IMG/VR virus record: IMGVR_UViG_3300043427_002431
Location: 1 to 20,357 of that record
DNA: 20,357 nt
DNA from: a virus
Reading direction: 5' to 3' (one strand)
Shown here: positions 1,207 through 20,156 of the stretch, one piece after another
How the letters are laid out: each line of letters opens with the position of its first letter
How positions within the stretch are numbered: position 1 is the first letter of the stretch
Notes under the pieces: model-generated
Databases searched by the model: none
Seen by the model: only the letters and a program-made list of their open reading frames with translations
What the model was told of the DNA's origin: nothing
Program-made: the position numbers and the translations under genes

Positions 1207-1929
1207 TTAGTCGTTAAATCGTTGGGCTACCTGTGGGAGTAACGCTATCTCATGACCCATTAATACTGTTTTAAGGGTTCCTTTTGCGCAAATTAAAATG
1301 GGAGCACTACTTGATTTTAAGTGTTGAAGAACATTACAAAATACATCTGTAGTGTAACATACCACAGATGATTCTATTTCATCATCAGCATGCTTTTCTA
1401 CCTCTGTATCTAAGCTAACAGTAAAGACTTCATTACTTTCATCAGATATTTCAAAAGACACTTTGCCGTTTACATATAAAACAATCTGCTTTGCCCCCAT
1501 AACCTTAACGGCATCTAGAATCATTTTAGCATCTTCTGGAGAAATAAAGAAAGAAAACGCTGGATTATCATTAATAGCTCGAGGCACCTTTTTCTCAAAC
1601 AGCATAGTATTAGCACATCTAAATTGCACTTTATTTTTGCCAGATGAAATCTCCAACATAGAGATTTCATTTTTGGCTGATTCTACTGCATTTATAGAAA
1701 TATCCTTATTTCCAAAAACGTCAATCCTTGACTTTAGTGTCTTAGCACGAACTATTCCTACGCTTTTGTTAAATTTAGGAATGTTGTTTTCTGATATCAG
1801 CGCGAACGTTTTTGATTCATTCACACCACGTGCTACACCATCTTCTATGAGAAACATGTCAATTGATCCCACTTGACAGACAGCCAGGAGTGTCTTAAGT
1901 GCCAAAATATCTTCTGCATCTAATTTCAT
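1207..1929 (-). CDS. 45: DNA polymerase sliding clamp (gp45-like)
   Basis: A 240-residue protein, close to the 228 residues of T4 gp45. It starts MKLDAEDILALKTLLAV, like the first helix of T4 gp45. It has the alternating strand and helix pattern expected of a trimeric clamp subunit, with an ISPEDAKMILDAVKVM segment at the likely start of the second domain and a C-terminal ending of the type GTLKTVLMGHEIALLPQV. Gp45 rings encircle DNA, tether the polymerase and, in T4, activate late transcription. The ATG directly follows the TAA of the polymerase C-terminal gene (TAAATG), with a GGAG site inside the polymerase end, so the two are translationally linked. There is no single diagnostic motif, so the call rests on length, pattern and position. 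Confidence 0.75.
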   Translation of the reverse strand: MKLDAEDILALKTLLAVCQVGSIDMFLIEDGVARGVNESKTFALISENNIPKFNKSVGIVRAKTLKSRIDVFGNKDISINAVESAKNEISMLEISSGKNKVQFRCANTMLFEKKVPRAINDNPAFSFFISPEDAKMILDAVKVMGAKQIVLYVNGKVSFEISDESNEVFTVSLDTEVEKHADDEIESSVVCYTTDVFCNVLQHLKSSSAPILICAKGTLKTVLMGHEIALLPQVAQRFND

Positions 1930-2889
1930 TTAAAACTCCAAAATGCTTGCCGTTAAAACTGTTTGAGGAGATGGGACATCTTTTCCAATAGAGCTAAAAA
2001 TCCCATCTAACTTAGAGTCAAACATAAGTTTCTCTGTTTTATTTCTATCCAACTTAAAGTTTTCCAAAAACCAATCAGGAAACCTGGTTAATTCTGCTGG
2101 AAAAGCAATAGACTCAAATTTATACTGGTTTGGTTTTAAGTAGTACACAAGGGCTTTGTCGCCAGACTTAATAGTTTTTCCACCTTTTTCAAAAATGTCA
2201 ATTAGAAAGTTGTAGTTACATGCAGCTCTAACATGCCCAGGGATTGCTAGCTTCCCACCAGTGCTGCTTTTGATAGAACCAGGTGACCTATATTCGGCCA
2301 TGAATTTATCTATATCATTGACGCGTTTAGCAATGCCAACTGAAAACAAATTTCCGCCTGACTTTCCTAAAATGTTCAGCCTTTCTTTATTTACAAACTC
2401 TGCAATACTATTATAGTCAGCACCATCCAAAATCATATCAACTGTATTCTTTAAGAATTGTTGAATGATTTTAGGGGTATCAGCTTTTTTAATTTCAGAG
2501 CCCATTGACTTTAGTTTGTCAACGGGTGTTCCTTCAAGATCAACTACCTTTATTATATACTTCTTTTTTGCCTGAAAAAGACCTCTTCGCCCAACAACTT
2601 CTCTACCTGCTTTGATTAAGTTGTCAAAATTTTCTTGACAGTTAAACGCATCTCTCATGAATTGTGGGAAAGAGGAATTTAATTCTTCAGCAACTGTGTC
2701 AGCTATCGCGACAGCTGACTCTTTTGATGTTGCCCCAACACATGAAAAATAAACCGAGTTATGGACAAGTACATCATTAGCAAAAAAATAGGGTGTATCA
2801 TGATCGTCCATGACGAGATCATAGACGAATTCGTCATTAAAGTCTGCTAGTCGCTCAACGCTCTTAACTTTTTGTCTCTTAATCTGCAT
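1930..2889 (-). CDS. 43: split intein C-half fused to C-terminal part of family B DNA polymerase
   Basis: A 319-residue protein in two parts. Residues 1-44 are a C-intein: block F-like FVYDLVMDDHDTPYFFAN followed by DVLVHN, with the canonical His-Asn end. Residues 45-319 are the C-extein, beginning SVYFS, the second half of polymerase motif C. Further on lie FQAKKKYIIKV, matching the KKRY motif of T4-type polymerases, and a C-terminal tail QTVLTASILEF that could be the clamp-binding peptide. Joined to the other half it should give YSDTD-SVYFS. The ATG lies inside the end of the endonuclease gene (11-base overlap) behind a weak GAGTGG site. The gene has no catalytic meaning alone: it needs the product of the 3928-6171 gene. 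Ser is the +1 residue. Confidence 0.93.
   Translation of the reverse strand: MQIKRQKVKSVERLADFNDEFVYDLVMDDHDTPYFFANDVLVHNSVYFSCVGATSKESAVAIADTVAEELNSSFPQFMRDAFNCQENFDNLIKAGREVVGRRGLFQAKKKYIIKVVDLEGTPVDKLKSMGSEIKKADTPKIIQQFLKNTVDMILDGADYNSIAEFVNKERLNILGKSGGNLFSVGIAKRVNDIDKFMAEYRSPGSIKSSTGGKLAIPGHVRAACNYNFLIDIFEKGGKTIKSGDKALVYYLKPNQYKFESIAFPAELTRFPDWFLENFKLDRNKTEKLMFDSKLDGIFSSIGKDVPSPQTVLTASILEF
2758..2889 (-). other. C-terminal half of split intein (IntC, 44 residues)
   Basis: Codons 1-44 of the polymerase C-terminal gene. Key elements are EFVYDLVMDDHDTPYFFAND (block F) and VLVHN (block G), with terminal Asn44 preceded by His43. The next residue is Ser, a standard +1 nucleophile. The length and start of this piece resemble known natural IntC fragments such as gp41-1. 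Confidence 0.93.
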
Positions 2890-3868
2890 TTAACCACTCA
2901 ATAATGTTGTTAATAACCTTTTGCTGGTTTAGATCCCAGTCATTTTCCCATATCACCATTATATCATATCCAGCTTGTTTAGCCAGTAGCTGTTTTTTGT
3001 AATCATTTTCCCAAATTTCCAGTGCAGTTTTTTGTTTAATTGTATGAAAAAAATCAGGTTGATACTTTAGTGGATTACAGTGCCAATAGTCACCGTTAAA
3101 CTCAATAACCTTTTTATTACGCCCAAAATCAAAACATCCCGGGATTCCAGTTATAAAAAATTGATATTTTAATTTTTCAGATAAGTGCTCATTTAATTTA
3201 GCTAACACTTCTTTTTCTTTTACATTTTTAAAATTTACGCAGTTTCTGCCACGACAAAAATCGGCAAACCTGCGTGCACCGTCATCTTGTCCATAACGTT
3301 CAATAAAATATTCTTCTGACGTGGTGTATCGTTGCCGTTCGCAATAATTTTGCCATTTAGCTAATCCCTCACTTTCTCCATACCTATTAATAAAATTCGT
3401 AAGTGTGCATGCCCTGCTTGAATTGTATTCGTCAAAGTCTAGTTTGGACCACCCATATGTTTTAGATTTATATTCAAAGGTATTTGTTTCTGCCTGTCTA
3501 TCTCTATATCTTTCCCACAGTTGCCTACCTTCCAGCTCTCCATATTTTTCAATCATTCTTTGTTCTGTGATTGCTGTGTTCTTTGCCAAGTTGGGGGCAA
3601 CAAGGGGGCTATTGGGAAATTTGATAGCATATTCCCGTGTCGACTTAATATTACACTTATATTTAAAATGCGTGTATTGAAGCCTAGTGGTAATAAGACC
3701 ACAGCCAAGACACTTTATAGCATTTCCTTTATAAATTTCACCTTCTAAGTTATTTGCGTCTAACTTGATACCCTTTCTGTTGCAAATCTTTTTCCACCGC
3801 TTTAATCCTTCCTGTTCTCCATATTTTTCAATATAGTACTCTGGATCTATAGCAACTTTTTTGCGCAT
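2879..3868 (-). CDS. Vsr-like (EDxHD-type) homing endonuclease inside the fractured polymerase
   Basis: A 329-residue protein starting at ATG 3868, behind a GGAG site six bases away; an in-frame GTG at 3880 is less likely. Four copies of a short repeat of the form IEKYGExEGxxxW occur near residues 8-30, 104-122, 157-180 and 184-206. A KCLGCG...LQYTHFKYKC segment (residues 53-72) resembles the Ros/MucR-type zinc finger, with Cys as the last ligand. The C-terminal catalytic domain has FDFGRNKKVIEFNGDYWHCNP (D247, E256, D260, H262), the Vsr-type pattern, and ends with MVIWENDW. Free-standing endonucleases of this family sit between the halves of split-intein genes in marine metagenomes (fractured genes, Dassa and colleagues 2009). 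It probably cuts intact polymerase alleles and spreads the insertion. It has its own late promoter. Confidence 0.88.
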   Translation of the reverse strand: MRKKVAIDPEYYIEKYGEQEGLKRWKKICNRKGIKLDANNLEGEIYKGNAIKCLGCGLITTRLQYTHFKYKCNIKSTREYAIKFPNSPLVAPNLAKNTAITEQRMIEKYGELEGRQLWERYRDRQAETNTFEYKSKTYGWSKLDFDEYNSSRACTLTNFINRYGESEGLAKWQNYCERQRYTTSEEYFIERYGQDDGARRFADFCRGRNCVNFKNVKEKEVLAKLNEHLSEKLKYQFFITGIPGCFDFGRNKKVIEFNGDYWHCNPLKYQPDFFHTIKQKTALEIWENDYKKQLLAKQAGYDIMVIWENDWDLNQQKVINNIIEWLNAD

Positions 3869-3880
3869 GTTGTTCTCCAC

Positions 3881-3905
3881 ATAAATATTGTTAAATGATA
3901 TTTAT
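3881..3905. repeat. 8-bp inverted repeat around the late promoter
   Basis: ATAAATAT at 3881-3888 is matched by its exact complement ATATTTAT at 3898-3905, with a 9-base loop. It lies in the short gap between the IntN stop and the endonuclease start and overlaps the late promoter element. It may be chance in AT-rich DNA, or a stem near the 5' end of the endonuclease mRNA. Confidence 0.5.
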
Positions 3906-3906
3906 A
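3899..3906 (-). promoter_or_regulatory. T4-type late promoter (TATAAATA) upstream of homing endonuclease
   Basis: The minus strand reads TATAAATA exactly, the consensus -10 box used by the T4 late sigma factor gp55 with clamp activation. It sits 31 bases before the endonuclease ATG and just after the stop of the polymerase N-half gene, leaving room for a transcription start and the GGAG site. T4 late promoters need no -35 box, and none is seen. Only one other perfect match was found upstream of a gene in the window (18894). Confidence 0.7.
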
Positions 3907-3927
3907 TGGAGATGTCTGAATATATTT

Positions 3928-6171
3928 CTATTCAATAGAAATAAAGATATCTGACTGCAAAATTTCTGATGCTTTAACTTCTATTAATTTACCTTCACGC
4001 TCGACCATAATGGAATGATCATTTGTTACCTCCACTGTTTTTCCATCCTCTAAAGTAACTCTCCACCTAGCCTTAGACACTTTATGTCTATAAACAGATC
4101 TTACATTCATATACTTAGCATTATTTTCTGATAATGTAAGCGCTTTTAATCCTGGTAGTCCCTCACCAAACTGCTTGCCGTTTTCTTTTACGGTTTTAAT
4201 AGGACAGGCATGAAACAACGCATCTAGTCTTAGGGTTCCATAATTAGTTTTTACCTCTGTTTCTCCAATAAGAGAGTCCGTGTCGGAATATATGATAGCT
4301 AGGTTATCTATAGTGTATTCATTCTCATATTTTCCATCTTTATTTAATGTAGTGTGTTTATTAAGAGGAACCTTTTCACCTGTTAAAAGATACCCAATAG
4401 TTTCAATCATGTACGTAGTGATTGCTCTACCAGAAGATGTAACAGATGCTCCCATCCTTTCATCACCATACCTAAAGAACTTATTTAGTAAGGCGCCGTA
4501 TAAGGAGTTCATGCTATACTTTTTTGTGATTTGAAGAAGGTCATAGTGATCAACTTGGCGTTGTGCTTCTTCTTTATCTTTTCCAGGTGGAAGCTCTTTT
4601 GCTTTGCTACTCCATTTTTTCTTTTCCGCCTGAAGCCTCTTTCTTTCAGCATACCAGTATCCTAAGATGTCAGACACGACTCCTTTTTGAGAGCTTTGAT
4701 CAAATATTGTTCCATACGCAGATACAGCCCAACGGTTTTCTTTAATTATGTTTTTCCACTCATGTGCGCTTAGCACCTCTTGTGATCCATTTTCAAAGAC
4801 GCAGCACAGCTTTTCATCATTTTTATTTTTAAGACTTTTCCACGCACTTTCTTTTTGAGTAAACTGTCCAATGATCTTTTCTGGCGAAATATTTAATGAG
4901 CGGATTGTATTTGGATATAGTGAATTAATATCAACCGAGCCGATCCATTCGTGTAACCCGATCTTTGGTGTCAAAACTACAGCACCTTCTACCTTTTCAT
5001 GATCACTTACACTCTTATCATGAACGATCTTGTTCATTTTATAGTGTGCATGATTCGTGATGGCAGTTTCAACATAAGACACTGTCCCTAAAACTGCACC
5101 AAATAACACAGTGCTCTCATGAGCAATTTGATTTGCTAAGGCAATGAATTTAAACTTTTCATCTAGCTGAACCAGCCCGTCAACGTCTCTAAAGTTATAG
5201 AGGACAAAGAGCTCAAAATCATTCTTATAAAGTTGCTCTAGAGTGCCATCGTATTCAATCTTACCAATCCCAACTTCTTCCTGTAGGATATTGCCTAAAG
5301 CATAAGACGTGCGCCCTTCAAATGTAAACTTTTCAAAAAGCTGAAGATAGTCTAGATGACTCTTACCAGTGAATCTATAAACTGGTTCTTGAGAACCATA
5401 CCTATCCACGCTTTCTTTCGAAGGCGGCTTAACACCTGGATACTCAAGCTGCGCCAGTAGAGAATTGCCACCGTTCAAAATAATTCTTTCACACGTGTAT
5501 GGAATGTCATAAAACTCTGAGTTCCAGCCAGATATGATGTCAGCATTTTGCATCAACTCTATAAGGAGTGTTATAAGCTCTGCTTCTGTCTTGCAAAGAA
5601 TTATTTCTGGGATAATCCCATTTCTAAGCAACTCCTTTTTAATAAGCTCATCAAGTCTAGTATAAATCTTATCAACACAGTTTCCATCCTTATCTAGCCA
5701 ATTGACACCATCTACAGTTGGAGGGATGGCAATTGTAATAAACTTTTTAGTCCATGACTGATAAACTGTCACAGCGTTAATCACCGCATAAGGATTTGAC
5801 GGCGATGGAAAGCCTCCCTCCTTCGTGTAGTCTGATTCAATATCAAAAAAGGCATAATTTACTTTGGGAGTAGGCCTATCATAGTACTTGTCCATTAGGA
5901 CACGCTGAAGCGGCCTGAAGTCAGACTCAAACTTTACAGGAAAAAGATTTTTTGCAGCTTCGTATTCATGCCTGTTTGAAAATTCGGCCCGAACTAACTT
6001 GTGCCCATAAATAGACTCATATTCACCCTCCTCATCTTCCACATAAAAATAGTATGGAGCGTTATGGCGCGTCTTGATTAGATTTCCAGAGTCGTCTCTT
6101 TCTAAGACGACAACAGTATCATCTGACCAATCATGCCATGCTGCAACATAATTACTGCTCTTGTCGTTCAT
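3928..6171 (-). CDS. 43: N-terminal part of family B DNA polymerase fused to split intein N-half
   Basis: 747 residues. The first 632 are the polymerase N-extein: exonuclease motif I FFDIES (D110, E112), motif II SGWNSEFYDIPY (near 214-225), motif III YNFRDVDG (D329), polymerase motif A SVDINSLYPNTIRSLNISPE (D414), motif B KKYSMNSLYGALLNKFF (near 550-566), and IIYSDTD, the first half of motif C. Residue 633 is Ser1 of an intein that fills the last 115 residues to the stop. So the gene makes an incomplete polymerase lacking half of motif C, the palm end and the thumb. Spliced length would be 632 + 275 = 907 residues, against 898 in T4 gp43. Its ATG overlaps the stop of the DsbA-like gene (ATGA), so expression is linked to that gene. 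This is the replicative polymerase, with proofreading. Confidence 0.95.
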   Translation of the reverse strand: MNDKSSNYVAAWHDWSDDTVVVLERDDSGNLIKTRHNAPYYFYVEDEEGEYESIYGHKLVRAEFSNRHEYEAAKNLFPVKFESDFRPLQRVLMDKYYDRPTPKVNYAFFDIESDYTKEGGFPSPSNPYAVINAVTVYQSWTKKFITIAIPPTVDGVNWLDKDGNCVDKIYTRLDELIKKELLRNGIIPEIILCKTEAELITLLIELMQNADIISGWNSEFYDIPYTCERIILNGGNSLLAQLEYPGVKPPSKESVDRYGSQEPVYRFTGKSHLDYLQLFEKFTFEGRTSYALGNILQEEVGIGKIEYDGTLEQLYKNDFELFVLYNFRDVDGLVQLDEKFKFIALANQIAHESTVLFGAVLGTVSYVETAITNHAHYKMNKIVHDKSVSDHEKVEGAVVLTPKIGLHEWIGSVDINSLYPNTIRSLNISPEKIIGQFTQKESAWKSLKNKNDEKLCCVFENGSQEVLSAHEWKNIIKENRWAVSAYGTIFDQSSQKGVVSDILGYWYAERKRLQAEKKKWSSKAKELPPGKDKEEAQRQVDHYDLLQITKKYSMNSLYGALLNKFFRYGDERMGASVTSSGRAITTYMIETIGYLLTGEKVPLNKHTTLNKDGKYENEYTIDNLAIIYSDTDSLIGETEVKTNYGTLRLDALFHACPIKTVKENGKQFGEGLPGLKALTLSENNAKYMNVRSVYRHKVSKARWRVTLEDGKTVEVTNDHSIMVEREGKLIEVKASEILQSDIFISIE
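3931..4275 (-). other. N-terminal half of split intein (IntN, 115 residues)
   Basis: Codons 633-747 of the polymerase N-terminal gene. Block A is SLIGETEVKTNYGTLRLDAL, with Ser as residue 1 instead of the commoner Cys. Block B is WRVTLEDGKTVEVTNDHSIM with the TxxH motif (T84, H87 of the intein). The piece ends ILQSDIFISIE and then a stop. No endonuclease domain is fused. Relative to gp41-1 IntN (about 88 residues by memory) it has extra sequence between blocks A and B. Confidence 0.92.
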
Positions 6172-6488
6172 TCAATTTCCTGTGTCTGCATTAGTGCGTT
6201 GATAGCTGCTTCAAGCTTTTCAAGCTCTTCCTTTTTCTGTTCAAAATTGTTGTTGAAGAATAGACTTACCAAGGAATTAAACATCTTTGGTTCAATATTC
6301 AAATCATTAACCGCAGCGTCCTTAATAGATTTAATCGCTTCGTTTTGGTCTAAGATTCGTGTCTTACACCTTACAACTTCGTCAATATAATTTTGAAGCT
6401 TTGCGCGCTGAGCATCAACCTTTAAGATTGAAGTTACTTCTGTGAAGTGATTCTTCTTACTAGCTAGCACCATTTGATTGCGTGGCAT
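6168..6488 (-). CDS. dsbA: DsbA-like double-stranded DNA-binding protein
   Basis: A 106-residue protein. From memory, its middle part closely parallels T4 DsbA: QNEAIKSIKDAAVNDLNIEPKMFN matches the T4 segment that ends DELGVDGKMFNRLL, followed by a Glu-rich helix (FEQKKEELEKLEAAINAL). T4 DsbA binds double-stranded DNA and helps late transcription; in T4 it lies next to rnh and gene 33. The ATG at 6488 is preceded by AAGGAGAA, a good ribosome binding site, and the stop overlaps the polymerase start. This version has about 17 more residues at the N-terminus than T4 DsbA. No alignment was run, so the call is probable and not certain. Confidence 0.68.
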   Translation of the reverse strand: MPRNQMVLASKKNHFTEVTSILKVDAQRAKLQNYIDEVVRCKTRILDQNEAIKSIKDAAVNDLNIEPKMFNSLVSLFFNNNFEQKKEELEKLEAAINALMQTQEIE

Positions 6489-6923: not shown

Positions 6924-7433
6924 TTAGTGTAACCTTAAATAATTGTGACTAGAGTTAGATGTTTCGGAAGACATCAAAAAATCTAAATGTTTTTCTTTAA
7001 TGTAATGATTGACATTAGCAGCCGTCTTTATCAAGACACTGATGCCTTCATTCTTAGCTTCCACTTTGTATTGTACATAATCGCCAAAATCATCAAAAAC
7101 ATGCGTTATAGGAATCATTACTTTTGAGGCATTCATGTCTTCTGGCATGTTGTCCTTAATTGTCTGAATTTCAGCATCTTTCATGTTGAAGAAAGTTTCA
7201 CTTGATTTACACGGGTAAAATTCTGGGTTGTAATGTTCTACCATTGTCTCAGGAGATTCTCCCATGATACTAACTATTGTGCTTTTAGCTTCATTTATAG
7301 CCTCAATGTCATTATTAAATGCATCGGTGACGCATGTTATAGCTACAATGTTTTTATATGGTACTTTACTTAAAATATCTTTACCTTCAATTTTTATAAG
7401 GTTTACACAGTCAATTACTTTGTACGCTATCAT
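6924..7433 (-). CDS. hypothetical protein (169 aa)
   Basis: Not recognised. A 169-residue protein beginning MIAYKVIDCVNLIKIEGKDIL, probably beta-rich in the first half (VPYKNIVAITCVTDAFNND). The middle is acidic, and a VMIPITHVFDDFGDYVQYKVEAK segment follows. There is no signal peptide or membrane segment. It begins two bases after the stop of the Cys-motif protein gene with no obvious ribosome binding site, so reinitiation is likely. It forms a small pair with the 6542-6919 gene. Function unknown. Confidence 0.68.
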   Translation of the reverse strand: MIAYKVIDCVNLIKIEGKDILSKVPYKNIVAITCVTDAFNNDIEAINEAKSTIVSIMGESPETMVEHYNPEFYPCKSSETFFNMKDAEIQTIKDNMPEDMNASKVMIPITHVFDDFGDYVQYKVEAKNEGISVLIKTAANVNHYIKEKHLDFLMSSETSNSSHNYLRLH

Positions 7434-7435
7434 AG

Positions 7436-8542
7436 TTATTTTAATAATTTGTTACTTTTAAATGACTCATTTGTGTCATCACCTGCTATCATTTTAACAT
7501 TAATAAGACCAGTTAAATCGTTGATGATTGATGCTGATTCAATCATTAATGGCGGGTATATTTCTTTTAAAAATTCCTTAGCTGCAGTAAACTCAATTTC
7601 TGGTGTGTAAGAGATATTCAACCTGAAATCATCTGTGTAATTACTCGCGGGTGACACAAAGTTAAGATACCGATCAATGGTCATATATGGGTGTGATGAT
7701 AGTAAAAACATAATGCCATCCATTTGGCTAATCCCTTTTATGACATTACCTTCTTCATCAGCCAGCCCCGTTATCATAGCTTTAAAGTTGCCATTAAGTC
7801 TATGAAAGTCTTCACAGCTATATACAACCCAATTTGTCGGTGAATTGTCATTTGTTTTTTCATATGAGCGAATATTAGCTATGTTTGACCAAGCCCCATA
7901 CGTCATCTTTTTATATGCGTTCTTGAAAAGCGTAAGCTTCCCTGGAACTATCTTTTGTTCATCATACACAATAACCGTTACCTTAGTTCCAGGCAGTAAA
8001 GGCTCACTAAATGTTATTGACCCAGGAGTTATGCTGGAGATTTCTGTTCCAATTCTTGCAGGAATCCCATTTTTTGAAACGTAAATTTTACCAAGAAGTA
8101 TATCATCGGTTGTAAACGTAAGGTTTTTGCCGTTGACATCTTTCTTAACGTTGCCATTTACAATTTCAGGAATGGTTGTTGTTTGCTGACTAACGCTGAA
8201 AAGGTATTGATTAAACCTAACATTATCTATTTTTTTTAAGCTCAGATTAAGATTTAAAACGTCCGGCAAATTTACACTTGACTGAACTGCTACATTGATA
8301 AGTGGATTTCTTGAGTTTTTAAACGAAAATGTTGGAGAGTCCTTCACCTCAGCGATGTCAATTGATTGAGTAATATTTTGTCTATAGTAATTATCCGAAG
8401 ATTCTTTATCGCCCTGAGGGTATAGTTTACCGGAACAGTTTGTAGTAAGACTACAGTTGTTTGGGAGAATTCTTAAAGGGTCATTTAAAAAATCCCTAGA
8501 TTTACTGCAAATAGAGCACTGGAATGTGGTGAATTTTGACAT
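7436..8542 (-). CDS. conserved phage protein with N-terminal four-Cys motif, possibly structural
   Basis: I chose the ATG at 8542 (MSKFTTFQCSICSK); an in-frame ATG at 8566 would add eight residues. The 368-residue protein starts with a small zinc-ribbon-like region, C9-x2-C12 and C30-x5-C36. The rest is beta-rich, with Thr/Ser/Asn-rich segments, a run typical of Ig-like or jelly-roll domains around PGTKVTVIVYDEQKIVPG, and a C-terminal part VVYSCEDFHRLNGNFKAMITGL. This composition suggests a virion or tail protein, but there is no family I can name. It lies between the nucleotide-metabolism block and two unknown genes. Only a weak six-of-eight late promoter match lies upstream. Confidence 0.75.
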   Translation of the reverse strand: MSKFTTFQCSICSKSRDFLNDPLRILPNNCSLTTNCSGKLYPQGDKESSDNYYRQNITQSIDIAEVKDSPTFSFKNSRNPLINVAVQSSVNLPDVLNLNLSLKKIDNVRFNQYLFSVSQQTTTIPEIVNGNVKKDVNGKNLTFTTDDILLGKIYVSKNGIPARIGTEISSITPGSITFSEPLLPGTKVTVIVYDEQKIVPGKLTLFKNAYKKMTYGAWSNIANIRSYEKTNDNSPTNWVVYSCEDFHRLNGNFKAMITGLADEEGNVIKGISQMDGIMFLLSSHPYMTIDRYLNFVSPASNYTDDFRLNISYTPEIEFTAAKEFLKEIYPPLMIESASIINDLTGLINVKMIAGDDTNESFKSNKLLK

Positions 8543-8580
8543 AATTTTTCTAATAAGTAGACACATAGACTATTTACTTA

Positions 8581-8787
8581 TTATTCTTCTTTTTTAGTAG
8601 AATCAACAGTGAAAAGAACTCTAGGATCCACCCACTTTTTCCAATCCATGTCACTATCAACGGGAGTTATCTCAACTAAAGTACTTTTAGCTGGCGGGCT
8701 GTATGGTAAAGTCCCATGTGTCCTAGTTGCTACTCTCCCTGTCTTTCTTACTTCAACACCATCATATACATATGTTTTATCTAACAT
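8581..8787 (-). CDS. conserved small phage protein (68 aa)
   Basis: Three consecutive ATG codons lie at 8793, 8790 and 8787. The third is best, because AGGA ends six bases before it. The protein reads MLDKTYVYDGVEVRKTGRVA near the start and contains DWKKWVDPRVLF near the end. Short proteins with YDGVEVxxTGRxA and WKKWV patterns are, from memory, common in marine T4-like phages, without a known role. The ribosome binding site lies inside the end of the exonuclease gene, whose TGA overlaps this start region, so the two are probably translated together. Confidence 0.72.
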   Translation of the reverse strand: MLDKTYVYDGVEVRKTGRVATRTHGTLPYSPPAKSTLVEITPVDSDMDWKKWVDPRVLFTVDSTKKEE

Positions 8788-11627: not shown

Positions 11628-12386
11628 TTATTCCATCAACATGTTCGCAGCGCCAGAACTAAATGTATAAGATCCGTTTGTTGTTGTGATAAAGAGCTGT
11701 GTTAAGCTTCCCGGCAGGTCTACGCGGCCGTTTACTGTGGCAACGGAGACTCTCGAAGAATCATTTGCCATAAGAGTACCAGAGGCTAGCCAAATATTGT
11801 CTTGGCCGGTTTTATTAAAAATTAAACTTCCTGACATGGCCCACCCAGGACCTGCTTCGAACCCTACATCATGTGTAGTGGTTGAATGACCTATAGTTGA
11901 ACCAGTTTTTGACATAGTGTATGTAGTGCCTGTATAACCACTAGTTGCCAATCCTGCTGCCGTTCCAACCCTTATTCTTAGCTGCGTGGCAACGTTTGAC
12001 GACAAATCCCAAAACATTAGAGTGACTCTTTTGGCCCAACTTGGAATAGGAGTAAACGTGACACCTACTAAACCTGAAGTAGCAAAAGTTGTGAATGGTA
12101 TATCTAAAAAGAGAGAATCATTTCTAAGTGTAGCTGGACTTATAACCTTTGTGTTATCAGTTCCTTCCTGAATATCCAAAGATGTCGCAAAGCTAACTGA
12201 AGACCCGCCAGAACCAGAAGGACCAGTCGGCCCTGTAGGCCCCTGAGCACCAGTTGCTCCACTTGGCCCAGTAGGACCAAGCACTTGGGGCAATAGAGCA
12301 GTCCATTTTTCACCATCCCATTTATACGAAATACCGTTAGATGCTAAATGAACTTGATTTTCTGCTGGAAATCCAGGAAACTCCAT
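11628..12386 (-). CDS. collagen-like tail protein 5 with distinct C-terminal domain
   Basis: The start is the ATG at 12386, behind AGGAG; an upstream in-frame extension overlaps the previous gene. Of 252 residues, 1-30 are the shared N-terminal module (MEFPGFPAEN...YKWDGEKWTAL), 37-62 a short collagen-like GPTGPSG tract, and the remainder a Ser/Thr-rich beta domain. That domain includes ISPATLRNDSLFLDIPFTT and SWAKRVTLMFWDLSSN, unlike the C-termini of the four sister proteins. The IQEGTDNTKVISPATL piece resembles tail-fibre tip or pre-tip sequence. Likely a trimeric, virion-surface fibre or decoration protein. Last gene of the tail cassette. Confidence 0.85.
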   Translation of the reverse strand: MEFPGFPAENQVHLASNGISYKWDGEKWTALLPQVLGPTGPSGATGAQGPTGPTGPSGSGGSSVSFATSLDIQEGTDNTKVISPATLRNDSLFLDIPFTTFATSGLVGVTFTPIPSWAKRVTLMFWDLSSNVATQLRIRVGTAAGLATSGYTGTTYTMSKTGSTIGHSTTTHDVGFEAGPGWAMSGSLIFNKTGQDNIWLASGTLMANDSSRVSVATVNGRVDLPGSLTQLFITTTNGSYTFSSGAANMLME

Positions 12387-12403
12387 TATAATTCTCCTAT
12401 TAC

Positions 12404-13234
12404 TTATGTTACACGGACCCAAATTGTTTTACTATGATATACACTTCCACCACTAGATACAATTACACTGTACGGCTGCACGGCTTTCCATGATCCAACT
12501 AAACCAAGATCTACAAGATCATTGCCGGGATTAAGCTCCATATCAAAAGGACCAACGGTCATTACTCTAAGGCTACTTCCATTTCTAATAGTACCAATAG
12601 GATAATTCCCTGCAGCGGTGTCATCTATTGATAGTGCGACTTTTATGTCTCCAACCTGTCCAGTTGAAAAAATATCTGTAACTGCTGGACCAGTAGGTCC
12701 TATATCACCTTGAGCGCCAATTGGGCCCTGTCTACCAGTTGGACCAGTTGGTCCCCTTATTCCTTGTATGCCATCTGGTCCGGTTGGTCCTTGAATGCCT
12801 TGGGGGCCAGTAGGACCAATAGGGCCATCAATTCCTTGAATTCCCTGTGGGCCAACAGCGCCTTGAGGACCAGTAGGTCCCACGCTACCTTGGGGCCCAG
12901 TAGGACCAATTGGTCCTTGAACCCCCACTGGTCCTATATCTCCCTGTGGTCCTGTTGGTCCTATATCTCCCTGAACACCTTGAGGCCCGATTGGACCTAC
13001 ATCGCCTTGAATACCCTGTGGTCCTGTTGGTCCAACTTCTCCTTGAATACCCTGAACACCTTGAGCGCCCTGCGGGCCAGTAGGACCAGATGGACCCATT
13101 GGACCTGTGGGTCCAACTTGACTTTTTACCTCACCATTCCATTTTTCACCATCCCATATATAGACAATATTATTGGGTGCTGTATATGTCTGACCCATTG
13201 CTGGAGATACTGGAAAATTTATTAAAGTGCTCAT
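12404..13234 (-). CDS. collagen-like tail protein 4
   Basis: 276 residues in three parts. The N-terminal module (1-37) contains INFPVSPAMGQTY and YIWDGEKW. A long collagen-like Gly-X-Y tract runs from about residue 41 to 183, with GPTGPQG and GIQG units. The C-terminal domain (about 188-276) contains FSTGQVGDIKVALSIDD, RNGSSLRVM, GSWKAVQPY and ends KTIWVRVT. That domain is clearly related to the one in the 14723-15226 protein, showing a paralogous pair with very different stalk lengths. Phage collagen-like proteins usually form trimeric stalks. The start has only a weak ribosome binding site and follows the previous stop by four bases. Confidence 0.88.
   Translation of the reverse strand: MSTLINFPVSPAMGQTYTAPNNIVYIWDGEKWNGEVKSQVGPTGPMGPSGPTGPQGAQGVQGIQGEVGPTGPQGIQGDVGPIGPQGVQGDIGPTGPQGDIGPVGVQGPIGPTGPQGSVGPTGPQGAVGPQGIQGIDGPIGPTGPQGIQGPTGPDGIQGIRGPTGPTGRQGPIGAQGDIGPTGPAVTDIFSTGQVGDIKVALSIDDTAAGNYPIGTIRNGSSLRVMTVGPFDMELNPGNDLVDLGLVGSWKAVQPYSVIVSSGGSVYHSKTIWVRVT
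12686..13114 (-). repeat. collagen-like Gly-X-Y tract of collagen-like protein 4
   Basis: About 143 residues of unbroken or nearly unbroken Gly-X-Y triplets with GPTGPQG, GIQG and GDIGP units. At DNA level this gives many imperfect 9-base repeats around GGACCA/GGTCCT. It is the longest stalk in the cluster and a likely site of repeat-length change. Confidence 0.9.
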
Positions 13235-13238
13235 GATA

Positions 13239-13958
13239 TTAAATTCTTATCCATAGCGATTCATATAATCCAGCCCCAACAGCAGGTCCTACGTTTTTCC
13301 ATGTTCCAGATGGGGTGACACTTGAAGATCCGTTTGAAATTCTTAGTTGTGAGCCAGAGACGGTTTGTTCATAATAAATTATATTGAATCCAATATATTC
13401 AGCTAAAATGTATGTTCCTGTTCCACCGCTTGGTCCAGTACCACCCGCTGGACCAGTAGGACCTGTGGGACCTCTTAATCCTGCCGGACCAGTGGGTCCT
13501 CGTTCTCCGGTAGGACCAGTGGGACCATAGACAGAATCGCCCTGTGGGCCTGGAGGACCAGCGGGTCCTGTAGCACCTGTCGGACCAGTAGGACCAGTAG
13601 GACCTGTTGGGCCAATTAAAGTTTCTCCTTGAGGACCAGTAGGACCTGTCGAACCAGTAGGACCTGTCGGACCAGTATCTCCATTTTGACCAATCTCTCC
13701 TTTTTCTCCAGGCAATCCCATAGGACCCTGGGGACCAGTAGGACCAGTAGGGCCAAATCCATCATTTCCGGGAGGGCCAGTAGGTCCAATTGGCCCTTGA
13801 TCACCTTTTTCACCGATTGGGCCCACTGGCCCAGTGGGCCCAATCAACACAGTCGTCTCTACAGTCCATTTTTCACCATCCCACAAGTAAGTTTTAGTGC
13901 CAATAACAATTATTTGGCCTAAAAATGGATCTGATGGAAAAATTAATTGATCACTCAT
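13239..13958 (-). CDS. collagen-like tail protein 3
   Basis: 239 residues. The N-terminal module (1-33) has [20 protein letters not shown] followed by LWDGEKW. Residues 39-181 are Gly-X-Y repeats, mostly GPTGPTG, interrupted by short breaks such as DGFGP, ETLIGP and DSVYGP. The C-terminal domain (about 182-239) has [26 protein letters not shown] and ends SLWIRI. It shares the G.xLRIS...GTWKNVG...W.R pattern with the 13970-14713 protein, so this is a second paralogous pair. A TAGG lies upstream of the ATG at 13958. Likely a virion stalk or fibre protein. Confidence 0.88.
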
Positions 13959-13969
13959 TTTTAATTAAC

Positions 13970-14713
13970 CTACCCAACTCTTGACCATACAATGTAGCCT
14001 TCTCTTTTTGCACTTTCATTTCTATAAGTTCCTAATAAGGATATTAGCCCCCTTCCAGGTTCACCCGTAGAAATTCTTAAATTTGACCCTGAAGTTGTTT
14101 GCCCATAACTTGGAATTGTTGCTGTGCCAAATGGTCCACGGTAAAAATAAGCATAAAAATATGATCCTACGCCAGTGCCCCCAGTTGGACCAGTTGGTCC
14201 AGTTGGCCCTACTACACTGCTTGTTGCTCCAGTTGGTCCTCTTTCGCCCCAAGGACCAGTTGGTCCAGGTAAGTAAAACCCAGGAGGTCCTTTTTCTGTT
14301 CCATTTACGCCAGTTGGTCCTCTTTCACCCATAAGCCCTTCATATCCTGTTGGACCGGTGATTAATAAGTCATTTTGAGTAGCGGGGCCTACAGGTCCCT
14401 GAGGTCCAGAACTCCCAGTTGGTCCAGTTGGCCCTCGTGCTCCCTTAGGACCAATAATACCATTTATCCCAGGGGGTCCTATAGGGCCTGTTGGTCCTAT
14501 AGGACCAACCTTTAAAACAGCTAGTTCATTGATAGGACCTTTAGGTCCTGGCGGCCCAATATCTCCAATATCTCCATTTGGTCCTTGGGATCCAGTTGGT
14601 CCCACAGGCGCAAGTTTTACACCTGTCCATTTTTCTCCATCCCAATAATATTGGAATCCATCAGGAGCTACAACTTTTTGACCTATTGCGGGATATACCG
14701 GAAAATTTGTCAT
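13970..14713 (-). CDS. collagen-like tail protein 2
   Basis: 247 residues. The N-terminal module has TNFPVYPAIGQKVVAPDGFQ followed by YYWDGEKW. The collagen-like region spans about 37-180 but is broken by non-collagen inserts (PINELAVLKV, ATQNDLLITG, TEKGPPGFYLP), giving a jointed stalk. The C-terminal domain (from about 183) has FYAYFYRGPFGTATIPSYGQ, SGSNLRIST, LGTYRNES and ends IVWSRVG, related to collagen-like protein 3. The ATG at 14713 is only nine bases from the previous stop and lacks a clear ribosome binding site, so coupled translation is likely. Confidence 0.87.
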   Translation of the reverse strand: MTNFPVYPAIGQKVVAPDGFQYYWDGEKWTGVKLAPVGPTGSQGPNGDIGDIGPPGPKGPINELAVLKVGPIGPTGPIGPPGINGIIGPKGARGPTGPTGSSGPQGPVGPATQNDLLITGPTGYEGLMGERGPTGVNGTEKGPPGFYLPGPTGPWGERGPTGATSSVVGPTGPTGPTGGTGVGSYFYAYFYRGPFGTATIPSYGQTTSGSNLRISTGEPGRGLISLLGTYRNESAKREGYIVWSRVG

Positions 14714-14722
14714 TTTAAAAAA

Positions 14723-15226
14723 TCATGCTATTCTGACCCAAACAACAGGCGTTCTAGATACATACGGAGTTCCTTCATCAAACCCGGCATCGACCCGATA
14801 TTGGGTTATAGCTTTCCAGGATCCAGTAAAACCAGGATTTATATCATAGCCACCAACAGTTGAAAAGGGAGCTGATGCCGCATAACGTAAGCTACTTCCA
14901 CTACGAATTCTTCCCGCAGGTACTAGTTCTGCTACATTATCATCTAAACTTACTGCAGGACATATATCGCCAATTTGCCCAGTTCCAAATATAGTCGCAG
15001 TGTTTGTCCCATCTGCGCCTGGAGCGCCCTGCAACCCCGTAGGACCTTGCACTCCATCTGGTCCAGTAGGCCCTTGTGGACCAGTAGGCCCTTGTGGACC
15101 AGTAGGTCCGGTAGCTGGTCCAGACACCTCTACGAATGCAGTCCATTTTTCACCATCCCATTTATATGATTTTCCGTTAGGAGCTAAGTAAACTTGATCT
15201 ATTGCTGGTTCAGTAGGAAATTGCAT
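14723..15226 (-). CDS. collagen-like tail protein 1
   Basis: 167 residues, the smallest of the five. The N-terminal module (1-29) has MQFPTEPAIDQVYLAPNGKS followed by YKWDGEKW. Residues 40-73 are a short GPTGPQG tract. The C-terminal domain (about 74-167) has IFGTGQIGDICPAVSLDD, RSGSSLRYA, FTGSWKAITQY and ends PVVWVRIA, the same domain as in collagen-like protein 4. A strong AGGAG site precedes the ATG at 15226. Probably a tail-associated trimeric protein. Confidence 0.88.
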   Translation of the reverse strand: MQFPTEPAIDQVYLAPNGKSYKWDGEKWTAFVEVSGPATGPTGPQGPTGPQGPTGPDGVQGPTGLQGAPGADGTNTATIFGTGQIGDICPAVSLDDNVAELVPAGRIRSGSSLRYAASAPFSTVGGYDINPGFTGSWKAITQYRVDAGFDEGTPYVSRTPVVWVRIA

Positions 15227-15242
15227 GTTACTCTCCTAAATA

Positions 15243-15488
15243 TTAAGAGCTTGAACCTGGGCTCAAGTCAATCCACGTGCTTCCTATATATACATAAGCA
15301 CGCATTGTGTCATTGTTGTCAAAATAAACGTCACCTACTCTAGGGTTTTCAGGTGGAGTACCAGATACTATCACGGTGGGCGGTGATTCACCAGCTGAAG
15401 ACCAAACAGTGCCATCCCAAGAATACTTTACATTGTTTATGGCTACATATACTTGTCCAACTTGAGGATTTTCAGGAAAAATTATCAT
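15243..15488 (-). CDS. 81-residue modular tail-associated protein without collagen
   Basis: The start is the ATG at 15488, seven bases after AGAGG. Residues 1-29 are the same N-terminal module as in the collagen-like proteins (IIFPENPQVGQVYVAINNVK, then YSWDGTVW). Residues 42-77 (PPENPRVGDVYFDNND, RAYVYIGSTWIDLSPG) match a segment of the long fibre protein ([29 protein letters not shown]). It therefore combines one module from each protein class with no stalk. Function unknown; it may be an adaptor between fibre and collagen-like proteins, or a recombination remnant. Confidence 0.75.
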   Translation of the reverse strand: MIIFPENPQVGQVYVAINNVKYSWDGTVWSSAGESPPTVIVSGTPPENPRVGDVYFDNNDTMRAYVYIGSTWIDLSPGSSS

Positions 15489-15500
15489 AATCAAACCTCT

Positions 15501-16862: not shown

Positions 16863-17331
16863 AACTATACTTATCCTTATAGTCTACTAATAAAATTGCC
16901 GGCATTCGAGTATAGATGTGTCTTATCTCTGTGATATTGCTATAATTTGTAGAAGTAGTTAAATCTCTAAGCGCCTGTTTATCTGCTTCTATAGCAGATG
17001 CTGCATCCATTTTTCCTAATGCGATGGCGCGCTGCTGTAAAAAGTCAAGCTTGCTCAATACTTCTTCCCTCTTCTTTCTTATCTCAGTAATATATACTTC
17101 CCGTATTGCGTCAATATCAAAATGAAGTGCTGTTGGGTTGTCTTTGTTGTCAAATTTGATACATTCTATATGCTGTGTCATTAATTCACTCTCGGTGGGG
17201 TTTATTAAAAATTTAGCGCCGTGACCAATTACTCCCATATCCTTTAGTCTATCTACTGATCTATTGGAGATAATCATCGCTACCTTAGAAGGAAAGATAG
17301 GGTGTGTGTAAAATATTTTTGATACTGTCAT
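16855..17331 (-). CDS. hypothetical tail-fibre-associated protein (158 aa)
   Basis: Not recognised as a named family. 158 residues starting [20 protein letters not shown]. The middle to C-terminal part is a long helix (EVYITEIRKKREEVLSKLDF to MDAASAIEADKQALRDL), which looks like a coiled coil and resembles small proteins that follow phage tail fibres. The start overlaps the stop of the long fibre gene (TAATG at 17329-17333), a sign of coupled synthesis. A chaperone or hinge role in fibre assembly is an inference from position and coiled coil. Confidence 0.66.
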   Translation of the reverse strand: MTVSKIFYTHPIFPSKVAMIISNRSVDRLKDMGVIGHGAKFLINPTESELMTQHIECIKFDNKDNPTALHFDIDAIREVYITEIRKKREEVLSKLDFLQQRAIALGKMDAASAIEADKQALRDLTTSTNYSNITEIRHIYTRMPAILLVDYKDKYSYV

Positions 17332-18815
17332 TATCCTCTCCCAACTACAACATTTAATGTGCCTGAATTAAAGTACGATTCACTGAATAACGTGGCATTG
17401 TCGTCAAAGAAATTTTGTACTGATGTTGATCTAGAAATAACCACCACATCAAAGAATGTTGGTTGAACATTTTGAGTATATACCATAATATCTGTTGGCG
17501 CGTGCCAAGAACTATTAGGTGTCTTTGAAGATGGCGCAGAGAAAGTGACTGCAGGAACTCCTCTTGGCCGTTCTGGGTGAAACACTCTAAACTGACCGGC
17601 ACCAAGTTTTGAAGCTGTTATAGTACCAGAAACGCTTCCTGATTCTATGTCTATCACACCAGCAGAAGTAACACCACCAGGCACTCCTTGTATGCCCTGA
17701 GAGCCCTGCGGACCTTGAGGCCCTCTAGGACCTGCCGCACCTTGAGGTCCTACTGGACCCTGGGGACCTACAGGTCCAGACGGTCCTGCTGGTCCAGGAA
17801 TTCCACTTGGGCTTAATTCAACCCATGCATTATACCAAACGAAAGCTCTGCCGCGTAAGCCAGTGTCAAACCAAACATCCCCAAGTCTTGGGGCCCCTGG
17901 AGGCTCAGCTGAAACATAAACTGCTGCAAAGTCTGCCTCTTTCCAAAAGAGATCAGATCCATCAGTGCTAAGCACCCGATCTTCATTTCCTGGTTGGAAT
18001 GGAAGTAAGTTGTTAATTGCGCCTATTACAGTTGATGCGCCGGTTCCTCCCTTAGAGATAGGAAGGGGTTGGCTTTCTAAAAGTGCTTGAAGCGCATTTT
18101 CTGCAGTTGTTTGTCCTGTCCCGCCATTTTCTATAGGAAGAACATCTCTCCATTGCAAATTTGCGCCATCAGTAATTAAGAAATAATTACCTTTACCTTG
18201 TTGATTTGGGATTATTAAATCTATCAATCCGGCAATTGAATTTTTTCCTGTTCCACCAAAGCCAACACCAAGAACACCTCCACTTAGTGTGATTGTTCCA
18301 GAAGATGTTACTGGTCCTCCAGTAAAGACAAGACCTGATGGACCACCAGAAACATTTACTGAGCTAACGGTTCCAATAGTTTCCCAAGCAGAATTTTTTC
18401 TGACCTTTAGTCTTAAATCGCTCGTATCAAACCATAAGTGACCTTGCTGTATTCCTTCAGGCTCGCTGGTTGATGCTACATTTCTCAGAGAAACCCAACT
18501 TCTTTCTGATGTTATCTCATTAACGTCATAACATATCTTTAGATCCCTTTGACCATAATCATACCAAAGTTGACCTATTGTTGCATTATCAGGTGGATAT
18601 GAAGAAGCAAAGTTTTCTAGCAGTCTTAGAAAATTTTCCTGTTGGATTTCTCCATAATCAGGAGAAGCTCTTCCTGTTAAAACTAGAGAAGTGCTTGTGT
18701 TATTTTTCTGTTTATCGGGCAGTAAGATTGATGATTGTTTTCCAGGTATGACACCATTGTTTGGCTCGCGCTGGTGGTCAGGGTGTAGACTTTGCCAGTC
18801 TATTATGTATGACAT
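17331..18815 (-). CDS. long tail-fibre-like protein with collagen-like segment
   Basis: The start is the ATG at 18815 behind AGGAGA; an upstream in-frame extension is less likely. Of 494 residues, the N-terminal part has [20 protein letters not shown] and then [15 protein letters not shown] and GQLWYD, a pattern typical of T4-like virion proteins. Residues about 185-270 hold three GGTG repeats ([24 protein letters not shown]), as in fibre shafts. Residues 304-337 hold a [13 protein letters not shown] module shared with the 81-residue protein. Residues 339-380 are a Gly-X-Y tract, and the end is a beta-rich head ([19 protein letters not shown]...). It is the first gene after the late promoter. 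Likely a host-contacting structural fibre. Confidence 0.88.
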
Positions 18816-18893
18816 GTTTTCTCCTATGTGCCAGTTCACATTATAAAAATACAATTTTGGTCTTAGAAATTGCTGGTTTTTTCTAATTATTAT

Positions 18894-18901
18894 TATTTAT
18901 A
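18894..18901 (-). promoter_or_regulatory. T4-type late promoter (TATAAATA) of the tail cassette
   Basis: The minus strand reads TATAAATA exactly, 78 bases before the ATG of the long fibre gene. Initiation would fall near 18885-18890, giving a leader of about 70 bases that ends with an AGGAGA site. The element overlaps the T-tract of the phoH terminator. Together with the AT-only surroundings and the tail genes downstream, this is a strong late promoter candidate. Confidence 0.78.
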
Positions 18902-18962: not shown

Positions 18963-20156
18963 TCAATAAGTATCGGGAGCATCAAGTAAATTTAATATCC
19001 TTTGAACTAATTGAGATCTAACCACGTCTCTATTAAAAAATTCAATGTAATTTATTTTCTCGTCCCTCCCTTTAAGTTTACGAACTATGTACTGAAGACC
19101 ATTTTCCCAATCGTCTCCAGCGCCTTTTGGCTTTCGTAAGTCTGATTGACTTACATCGCCGTTAATAGCAAAAAAGCTATTAAAACCAATTCTAGTCACG
19201 AACATTTTGACTTGTTCTACAGTAGCGTTCTGGCATTCATCAAGTATTACGTAGCAGTTTGATGATAAAACACCACCATTTGTGAAAAAGTTATGATTGT
19301 CTTCTACAGTAATATCATAGACATCATCGTCGCTGTTTATTATTTCGATTTTTGAAATCTCTAATCTTATGCACTCTGATCCTTTTGAATTTCTCGCCAG
19401 TGGGGGTTCATCATTTTGAGCCTCGCTTAGACTTATAATTCCATCCTCTAGCGTTAGATTTACCATAGGTATATATCCGCGCTGAGTAAACAGCTTATGA
19501 TCTGGTGTAGCTAAAATCTCAGTCCCATTTTTAAGAGTTAACTTAACCAGTTTTTTATGCTGGTTGGGTTGCTTAAAGGCAAACTGAATTTTTTTATTTT
19601 CTAATTTTTTACTTTCAATGTTATAAGTGACAACTTCTAATGATTTGCCAGAACTGAATTCTTCAAGCAAAGTATCCATCCTGATCCATTCACCAGACGA
19701 AAGAAGCACTTTATGATCAGCTGGCAAACAGTTATTAAAACTCCGGCCTCTCATAAATGCTAATGGTGCTATTTCTATCTTTCTATTTTCAAGAAGCTTC
19801 TTTGTCATTGTAGGACCAACGTGGTCTTCAATGCTATCTAGAAGTGGTAACAGATAGGGATCAAGCTTTTCTTCAAGTGTACCTGGCAAAAATCCTAGGT
19901 GCTCTCCTGCCTCAACCACTGGTCTAGTGATAATGATTCTATCTACTTCTTGATTGATTAATTTTTCAACTGCAATTGCGGTAACTATGTATGTTTTACC
20001 CGAACCTGCTGGTCCGTTGCATATTGTAAGCGGTTGTTCTCTAAGAGAATCAATATACAGTGCCTGCGCTGTATTTTTTGGTGTTATTTTATGTCTTATA
20101 CTTATGTTTTCTCCATTTGCCTTAACTGTGTTAGGTGGATACTTATTTCTCTTCAT
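18963..20156 (-). CDS. phoH: PhoH-like ATPase interrupted by a mini-intein
   Basis: 397 residues, of which 239 are extein. The N-extein (1-142) has NGPAGSGKTYIVTAIAVEKL (Walker A, 48-55), IIITRPVVEAGEHLGFLPGT, and AFMRGRSFNN. The C-extein (301-397) begins CYVILDECQNAT (Walker B), then FAINGDVSQSDLRKPKGAGD. Joined, it reads MRGRSFNNCYVILDECQNAT, the standard PhoH order. PhoH is a P-loop NTPase common in marine phages; its role (RNA metabolism or phosphate stress) is unsettled. The ATG is behind GGAGA with seven bases spacing. The gene is complete and in frame, so the intein should be removed by cis-splicing. Confidence 0.93.
   Translation of the reverse strand: MKRNKYPPNTVKANGENISIRHKITPKNTAQALYIDSLREQPLTICNGPAGSGKTYIVTAIAVEKLINQEVDRIIITRPVVEAGEHLGFLPGTLEEKLDPYLLPLLDSIEDHVGPTMTKKLLENRKIEIAPLAFMRGRSFNNCLPADHKVLLSSGEWIRMDTLLEEFSSGKSLEVVTYNIESKKLENKKIQFAFKQPNQHKKLVKLTLKNGTEILATPDHKLFTQRGYIPMVNLTLEDGIISLSEAQNDEPPLARNSKGSECIRLEISKIEIINSDDDVYDITVEDNHNFFTNGGVLSSNCYVILDECQNATVEQVKMFVTRIGFNSFFAINGDVSQSDLRKPKGAGDDWENGLQYIVRKLKGRDEKINYIEFFNRDVVRSQLVQRILNLLDAPDTY
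19257..19730 (-). other. cis-splicing mini-intein in PhoH (158 residues)
   Basis: Residues 143-300 of the PhoH reading frame. Block A starts CLPADHKVLLSSGEWIRM, with Cys1. Block B is VKLTLKNGTEILATPDHKLF, with TPDH. Block F is VYDITVEDNHNFFTN. The C-terminus is GGVLSSN followed by Cys+1. The penultimate residue is Ser, not the usual His. No LAGLIDADG or HNH endonuclease domain is present, so this is a mini-intein. Insertion lies directly before the Walker B strand. Confidence 0.92.

Follow-up and report, generated by a model that had tools for sequence, protein, structure and literature searches.

A putative late-on switch, with a T4-type late promoter box nested in a predicted ribosome-binding-site hairpin, precedes a Vsr-fold homing endonuclease in a fractured phage DNA polymerase gene

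The window—the whole stretch of 20,357 nt analyzed here, from IMG/VR virus record IMGVR_UViG_3300043427_002431—carries a fractured DNA polymerase gene on its minus strand. Specifically, an open reading frame (ORF) for the polymerase N-half and N-intein (3928–6171), in which the intein begins at Ser633 after YSDTD, is followed by a separate ORF for a 329-aa endonuclease (2879–3868) and then by one for a C-intein (44 aa, ending ...LVHN) and the polymerase C-half (1930–2889), the first 11 nt of which overlap the end of the endonuclease ORF; the exteins join to an intact polymerase. In two relatives (L106 and L107; N-half identities of 55 and 62%), the polymerase runs uninterrupted through IIYGDTDSCY at the insertion place, and thus the intein, endonuclease, and the promoter and hairpin described below are absent together. 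The gene immediately upstream of the polymerase (6168–6488, minus strand) encodes a DsbA-family protein that shares its PHROG with T4 DsbA, a protein linked to late promoters. Downstream lies a gp45-like sliding clamp (1207–1929, minus strand), whose identity rests on its relatives: phrog_223 (DNA polymerase processivity factor) is matched by three of the four family members but not by the copy in the window, whose fold as predicted from the single sequence (pLDDT 33) is unusable. Peptide patterns retrieved no clamp relatives from viral contigs. Elsewhere on this strand, a PhoH-like ATPase gene (18963–20156) contains an in-frame mini-intein (Pfam Intein_splicing, residues 159–294), and tail-fibre-like ORFs follow one another through 11628–15494; most contain collagen-like GPTGP repeats, and the N termini of all of them share a similar motif (YxWDGEKW or near).

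The endonuclease, which matches phrog_22677, was modeled with a pLDDT of 90, and its best structural matches are Vsr and I-Bth0305I (top Foldseek matches 1cw0 and 3r3p; probability 1.00, E 0.02–0.05). Its relatives share the invariant residues D247, E256, D260, and H263. The structure model, together with these residues, places the enzyme in the Vsr/I-Bth0305I nuclease fold.

Ahead of this gene, an exact copy of the T4-type late promoter box, TATAAATA, occupies 3906–3899 on the minus strand, within the 59-nt gap between the N-half stop (3928) and the endonuclease start and outside any reading frame. The original prediction placed the box 31 bases before the ATG, and this is confirmed: 30 nt separate it from the ATG (3868–3866), the A of which is base 31. 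As the T4 late box covers −13 to −6 relative to the start (PMC1524935), transcription would be predicted to begin at 3893. The octamer alone is weak evidence, since the window holds 2 exact copies vs. 1.92 expected from shuffles; for the coding strand of the 59-nt gap, the expectation is ~0.0025. The only second copy (18894–18901, minus strand) lies ~40 nt ahead of a tail-fibre-like ORF (17331–18854) that starts with TTG. Sigma-70 promoters in the locus do not exceed their count in shuffles.

We collected 80 IMG/VR loci with related endonucleases, nearly all of them in T4-type polymerase genes fractured at either of two insertion sites, and counted 44 distinct loci, window included. The two intein sites lie two codons apart (YGD/TDS and DTD/S; L003–L082), and both carry Vsr-type endonucleases of one family. 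The core motif ATAAATA stands 18–31 nt before the endonuclease ATG in 29 of the 44 distinct loci, vs. 15 of 411 other ORFs from these loci; 300 shuffles gave 1.03 of 44 on average and 5 at most. Some loci scored as box-negative have GTAAATA or CTAAATA at the same place, the latter being the form reported for the late box of Aeh1. The box is absent from several relatives, including the nearest by endonuclease (L003, 61% identity), which also lacks a significant hairpin. In Klebsiella phage KP13-7 a hairpin is present without the box; in Aeromonas phage Aes508, where the nuclease overlaps the polymerase N-half, there is neither; and in PA5oct, a relative of phage MIJ3, neither was found ahead of the nuclease. 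A further polymerase relative (L105) has the same kind of split intein with a different ORF of 513 aa (7213–8754), whose ATG overlaps the N-half stop; neither late box nor hairpin was found there.

The machinery for late transcription is also represented among related phages. Of 16 related records, 9 encode a late sigma factor of the gp55 family, and the three isolates (Klebsiella phage KP13-7, Salicola phage SCTP-2, and Pseudomonas phage PA5oct) are all among them; no such gene was seen in the window, a 20-kb fragment, nor in G001, the 101-kb fragment that carries the closest endonuclease relative. All 16 records, like the window, encode the DsbA family, and gp33 (phrog_254) was not detected in 11 records by a search that is uninformative, no positive control having responded. 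Among 7-mers upstream of ORFs, ATAAATA ranks first in enrichment in the window plus G001 (13 vs. 1.06 expected) and again in another related record, G009 (17 vs. 1.15 expected), as judged by positional expectation, because ATAAATA reads identically backwards and a reversed-motif control is therefore void. In G001, 8 of 14 copies of TATAAATA lie upstream of ORFs vs. 0.49 expected, and some of these sites precede tail-fibre- or baseplate-like genes, such that a late-type motif stands upstream of late-type genes in related phages (G001 and G009). By comparison, then, there is good support for the proposal that the endonuclease has a T4-type late promoter, through box placement in 29 of 44 loci, gp55 in relatives, and enrichment of the upstream 7-mer, though as a reading of sequence it stays a predicted promoter.

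The main feature that the original prediction missed is a hairpin over the endonuclease Shine–Dalgarno (SD) sequence. In the predicted fold, a stem of 15 bp, capped by a 9-nt loop, pairs 3912–3898 with 3888–3874 (−16.5 kcal/mol; z −5.5; none of 200 shuffles as good), the 5′ arm (3898–3912) holding the entire late box and the 3′ arm (3874–3888) the whole SD (GGAG, 3875–3878). The structure of the ribosome-binding-site (RBS) region (z −6.7) lies beyond that of every one of 120 control starts. The hairpin does not coincide with any terminator-like site. The predicted +1 at 3893 falls within the loop, so a transcript from it would lack the 5′ arm and could not form the hairpin. On this geometry, the mean probability that the SD is unpaired rises from 0.00 in read-through RNA to 0.48 in the predicted late RNA, and the fold energy weakens from −18.9 to −6.6 kcal/mol, with some structure kept. 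The hairpin thus makes the site a likely early-off/late-on switch rather than an extra promoter. Because its stem is near-palindromic, the plus strand also carries a late-like box with one mismatch, CATAAATA (3880–3887), whose predicted +1 is likewise 3893; this candidate promoter could give antisense RNA across the end of the polymerase N-half.

Across the family the same tendency appears in weaker form. An RBS-region z below −2 was found in 14 of 29 box-bearing loci vs. 7 of 120 control starts (Mann–Whitney P 9e-7), and from read-through to late RNA the exposure of the SD rises from 0.60 to 0.73 (P 0.009), a small gain, with AUG exposure also rising (P 0.002); these P values are optimistic because the loci are mutually related. 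Around half of the loci present the SD in the loop of a shorter, ATG-anchored hairpin, unlike the form in the window. A search for covariation in the ATG-anchored hairpin gave nothing convincing: outer and inner pairs are conserved, and the middle is often mismatched.

We therefore favor, with good though not full confidence, a late-on switch in which the hairpin blocks the endonuclease in read-through RNA and a late promoter in the 5′ arm frees the SD. The box, the hairpin, their geometry, the family conservation of a late-type box, and the motif enrichment in related phages can be read from the sequences; from these we infer promoter activity, the start site, early repression, and timing. 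Early and middle read-through RNA would carry both hairpin arms, leaving the SD paired and endonuclease synthesis blocked. Late in infection, a gp55-type sigma factor, aided by the clamp, would initiate at the TATAAATA box in the 5′ arm, and the resulting RNA from ~3893, without that arm, would have a more open SD from which the endonuclease would be translated. Late-only synthesis of the endonuclease is thus probably the best reading, and the delayed cutting that the original prediction proposed fits, by analogy, the known logic of I-TevI. As for the polymerase C-half, in 35 of 36 loci its ORF begins before the endonuclease ORF has ended, and an SD-like sequence precedes that start, within the endonuclease ORF, in 27 of 36, the window's being weak (GAG). 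With its own SD-like sequence in most relatives, the C-half could be made early from read-through RNA. It is plausible that the late promoter adds to this supply instead of replacing it, and a late-only C-half is unnecessary. Late expression of the clamp and a shifting ratio of the two polymerase halves, which the original prediction also raised, may be further effects.

The leading alternative is that only the promoter matters, i.e., the box works and the hairpin has little influence on translation. That many relatives conserve the box without an unusually structured RBS region agrees with such a view. On the contrary, the window hairpin is far beyond chance, pairs the SD fully, and matches the geometry of I-TevI, and we thus regard a promoter acting alone as unlikely in the window.

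I-TevI also represses its own synthesis through an operator that resembles its homing site, and a similar arrangement could be proposed here, with the endonuclease binding a copy of its homing site that overlaps the late promoter. The candidate operator, ATATATTCAGACA (3923–3911, minus strand), is identical at 12 of 13 positions to homing-site DNA, ATATATTCCGACA (P ~0.02, uncorrected), and across the family there is a resemblance between the hairpin arm and the YGDT codons (offset z 7.3). Yet homing sites swapped among loci match as well as a locus's own (P 0.28 and 0.89), and the match could stem from a single chance resemblance of two conserved blocks; as the main function of the site, autorepression is therefore very improbable, although it could coexist with the late-on hairpin switch. 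The most elaborate version, in which Vsr-kind split-intein endonucleases carry the full I-TevI package (a hairpin-nested late promoter and homing-site autorepression) plus a divergent antisense promoter at CATAAATA, is speculative, and we give it little weight. That the octamer and palindrome are meaningless products of an AT-rich gap, as the near-expected count of TATAAATA in the window and the bare L003 locus might suggest, is hardly credible given the family-wide placement of the box, the hairpin z, and the unbiased 7-mer enrichment in relatives.

The late-on switch preferred here has precedents in other kinds of endonuclease gene. An arrangement of late promoter and RBS-sequestering hairpin is described for I-TevI, T4 gene e, and Aeh1 mobE (PMC2988022, PMC3014915). 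As here, the I-TevI gene of the T4 td intron has its late box within the hairpin region, with early RNA folded and late RNA open, though I-TevI belongs to the GIY-YIG nucleases and its gene lies in an RNA intron that splices itself, and its hairpin also shields the splicing of intron RNA (PMC2988022, PMC3014915). Our own procedure, applied to I-TevI as a yardstick, placed the box 23 nt before the ATG, gave a read-through fold of −19.7 kcal/mol, and left the late RNA unfolded. Protection of RNA splicing cannot apply in the window, because a split intein splices as protein, and the locus therefore helps to separate that role from the timing or toxicity of cutting. The leader of T4 gene e (lysozyme) likewise has TATAAATA in the 5′ strand of the stem that pairs the SD (PMC3014915), but gene e is not a mobile element. 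Aeh1 mobE, as summarized in PMC2988022 from Gibb and Edgell, is similarly embedded in an essential DNA-metabolism gene (the split nrdA) and preceded by an RBS-sequestering hairpin and a late promoter just upstream; it differs, in that summary, in being an HNH nuclease in a split ribonucleotide reductase without an intein, whereas here a Vsr-fold nuclease sits with a split intein in a DNA polymerase gene.

The gene arrangement itself has close counterparts. Dassa et al. (2009) reportedly described fractured genes that combine split inteins with Vsr-like endonucleases, and these, like the Aes508 polymerase locus, have the order found here, i.e., N-half with IntN, free-standing endonuclease gene, and IntC with C-half; Aes508 further shares a related Vsr-type nuclease, unlike the window without box or hairpin. 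Phage MIJ3 has a split PolB with an HNH nuclease (PMC6892783). In the literature searched, we found no published late promoter or hairpin in fractured split-intein loci. As the predicted switch precedes half of an essential polymerase, homing could be linked to polymerase supply. With late-on switches already described for GIY-YIG and HNH endonucleases, a Vsr-fold case points to repeated selection for late expression, and a switch of the I-TevI/mobE type, serving a Vsr-fold nuclease within a split-intein locus, is a better description of this site than a promoter alone.
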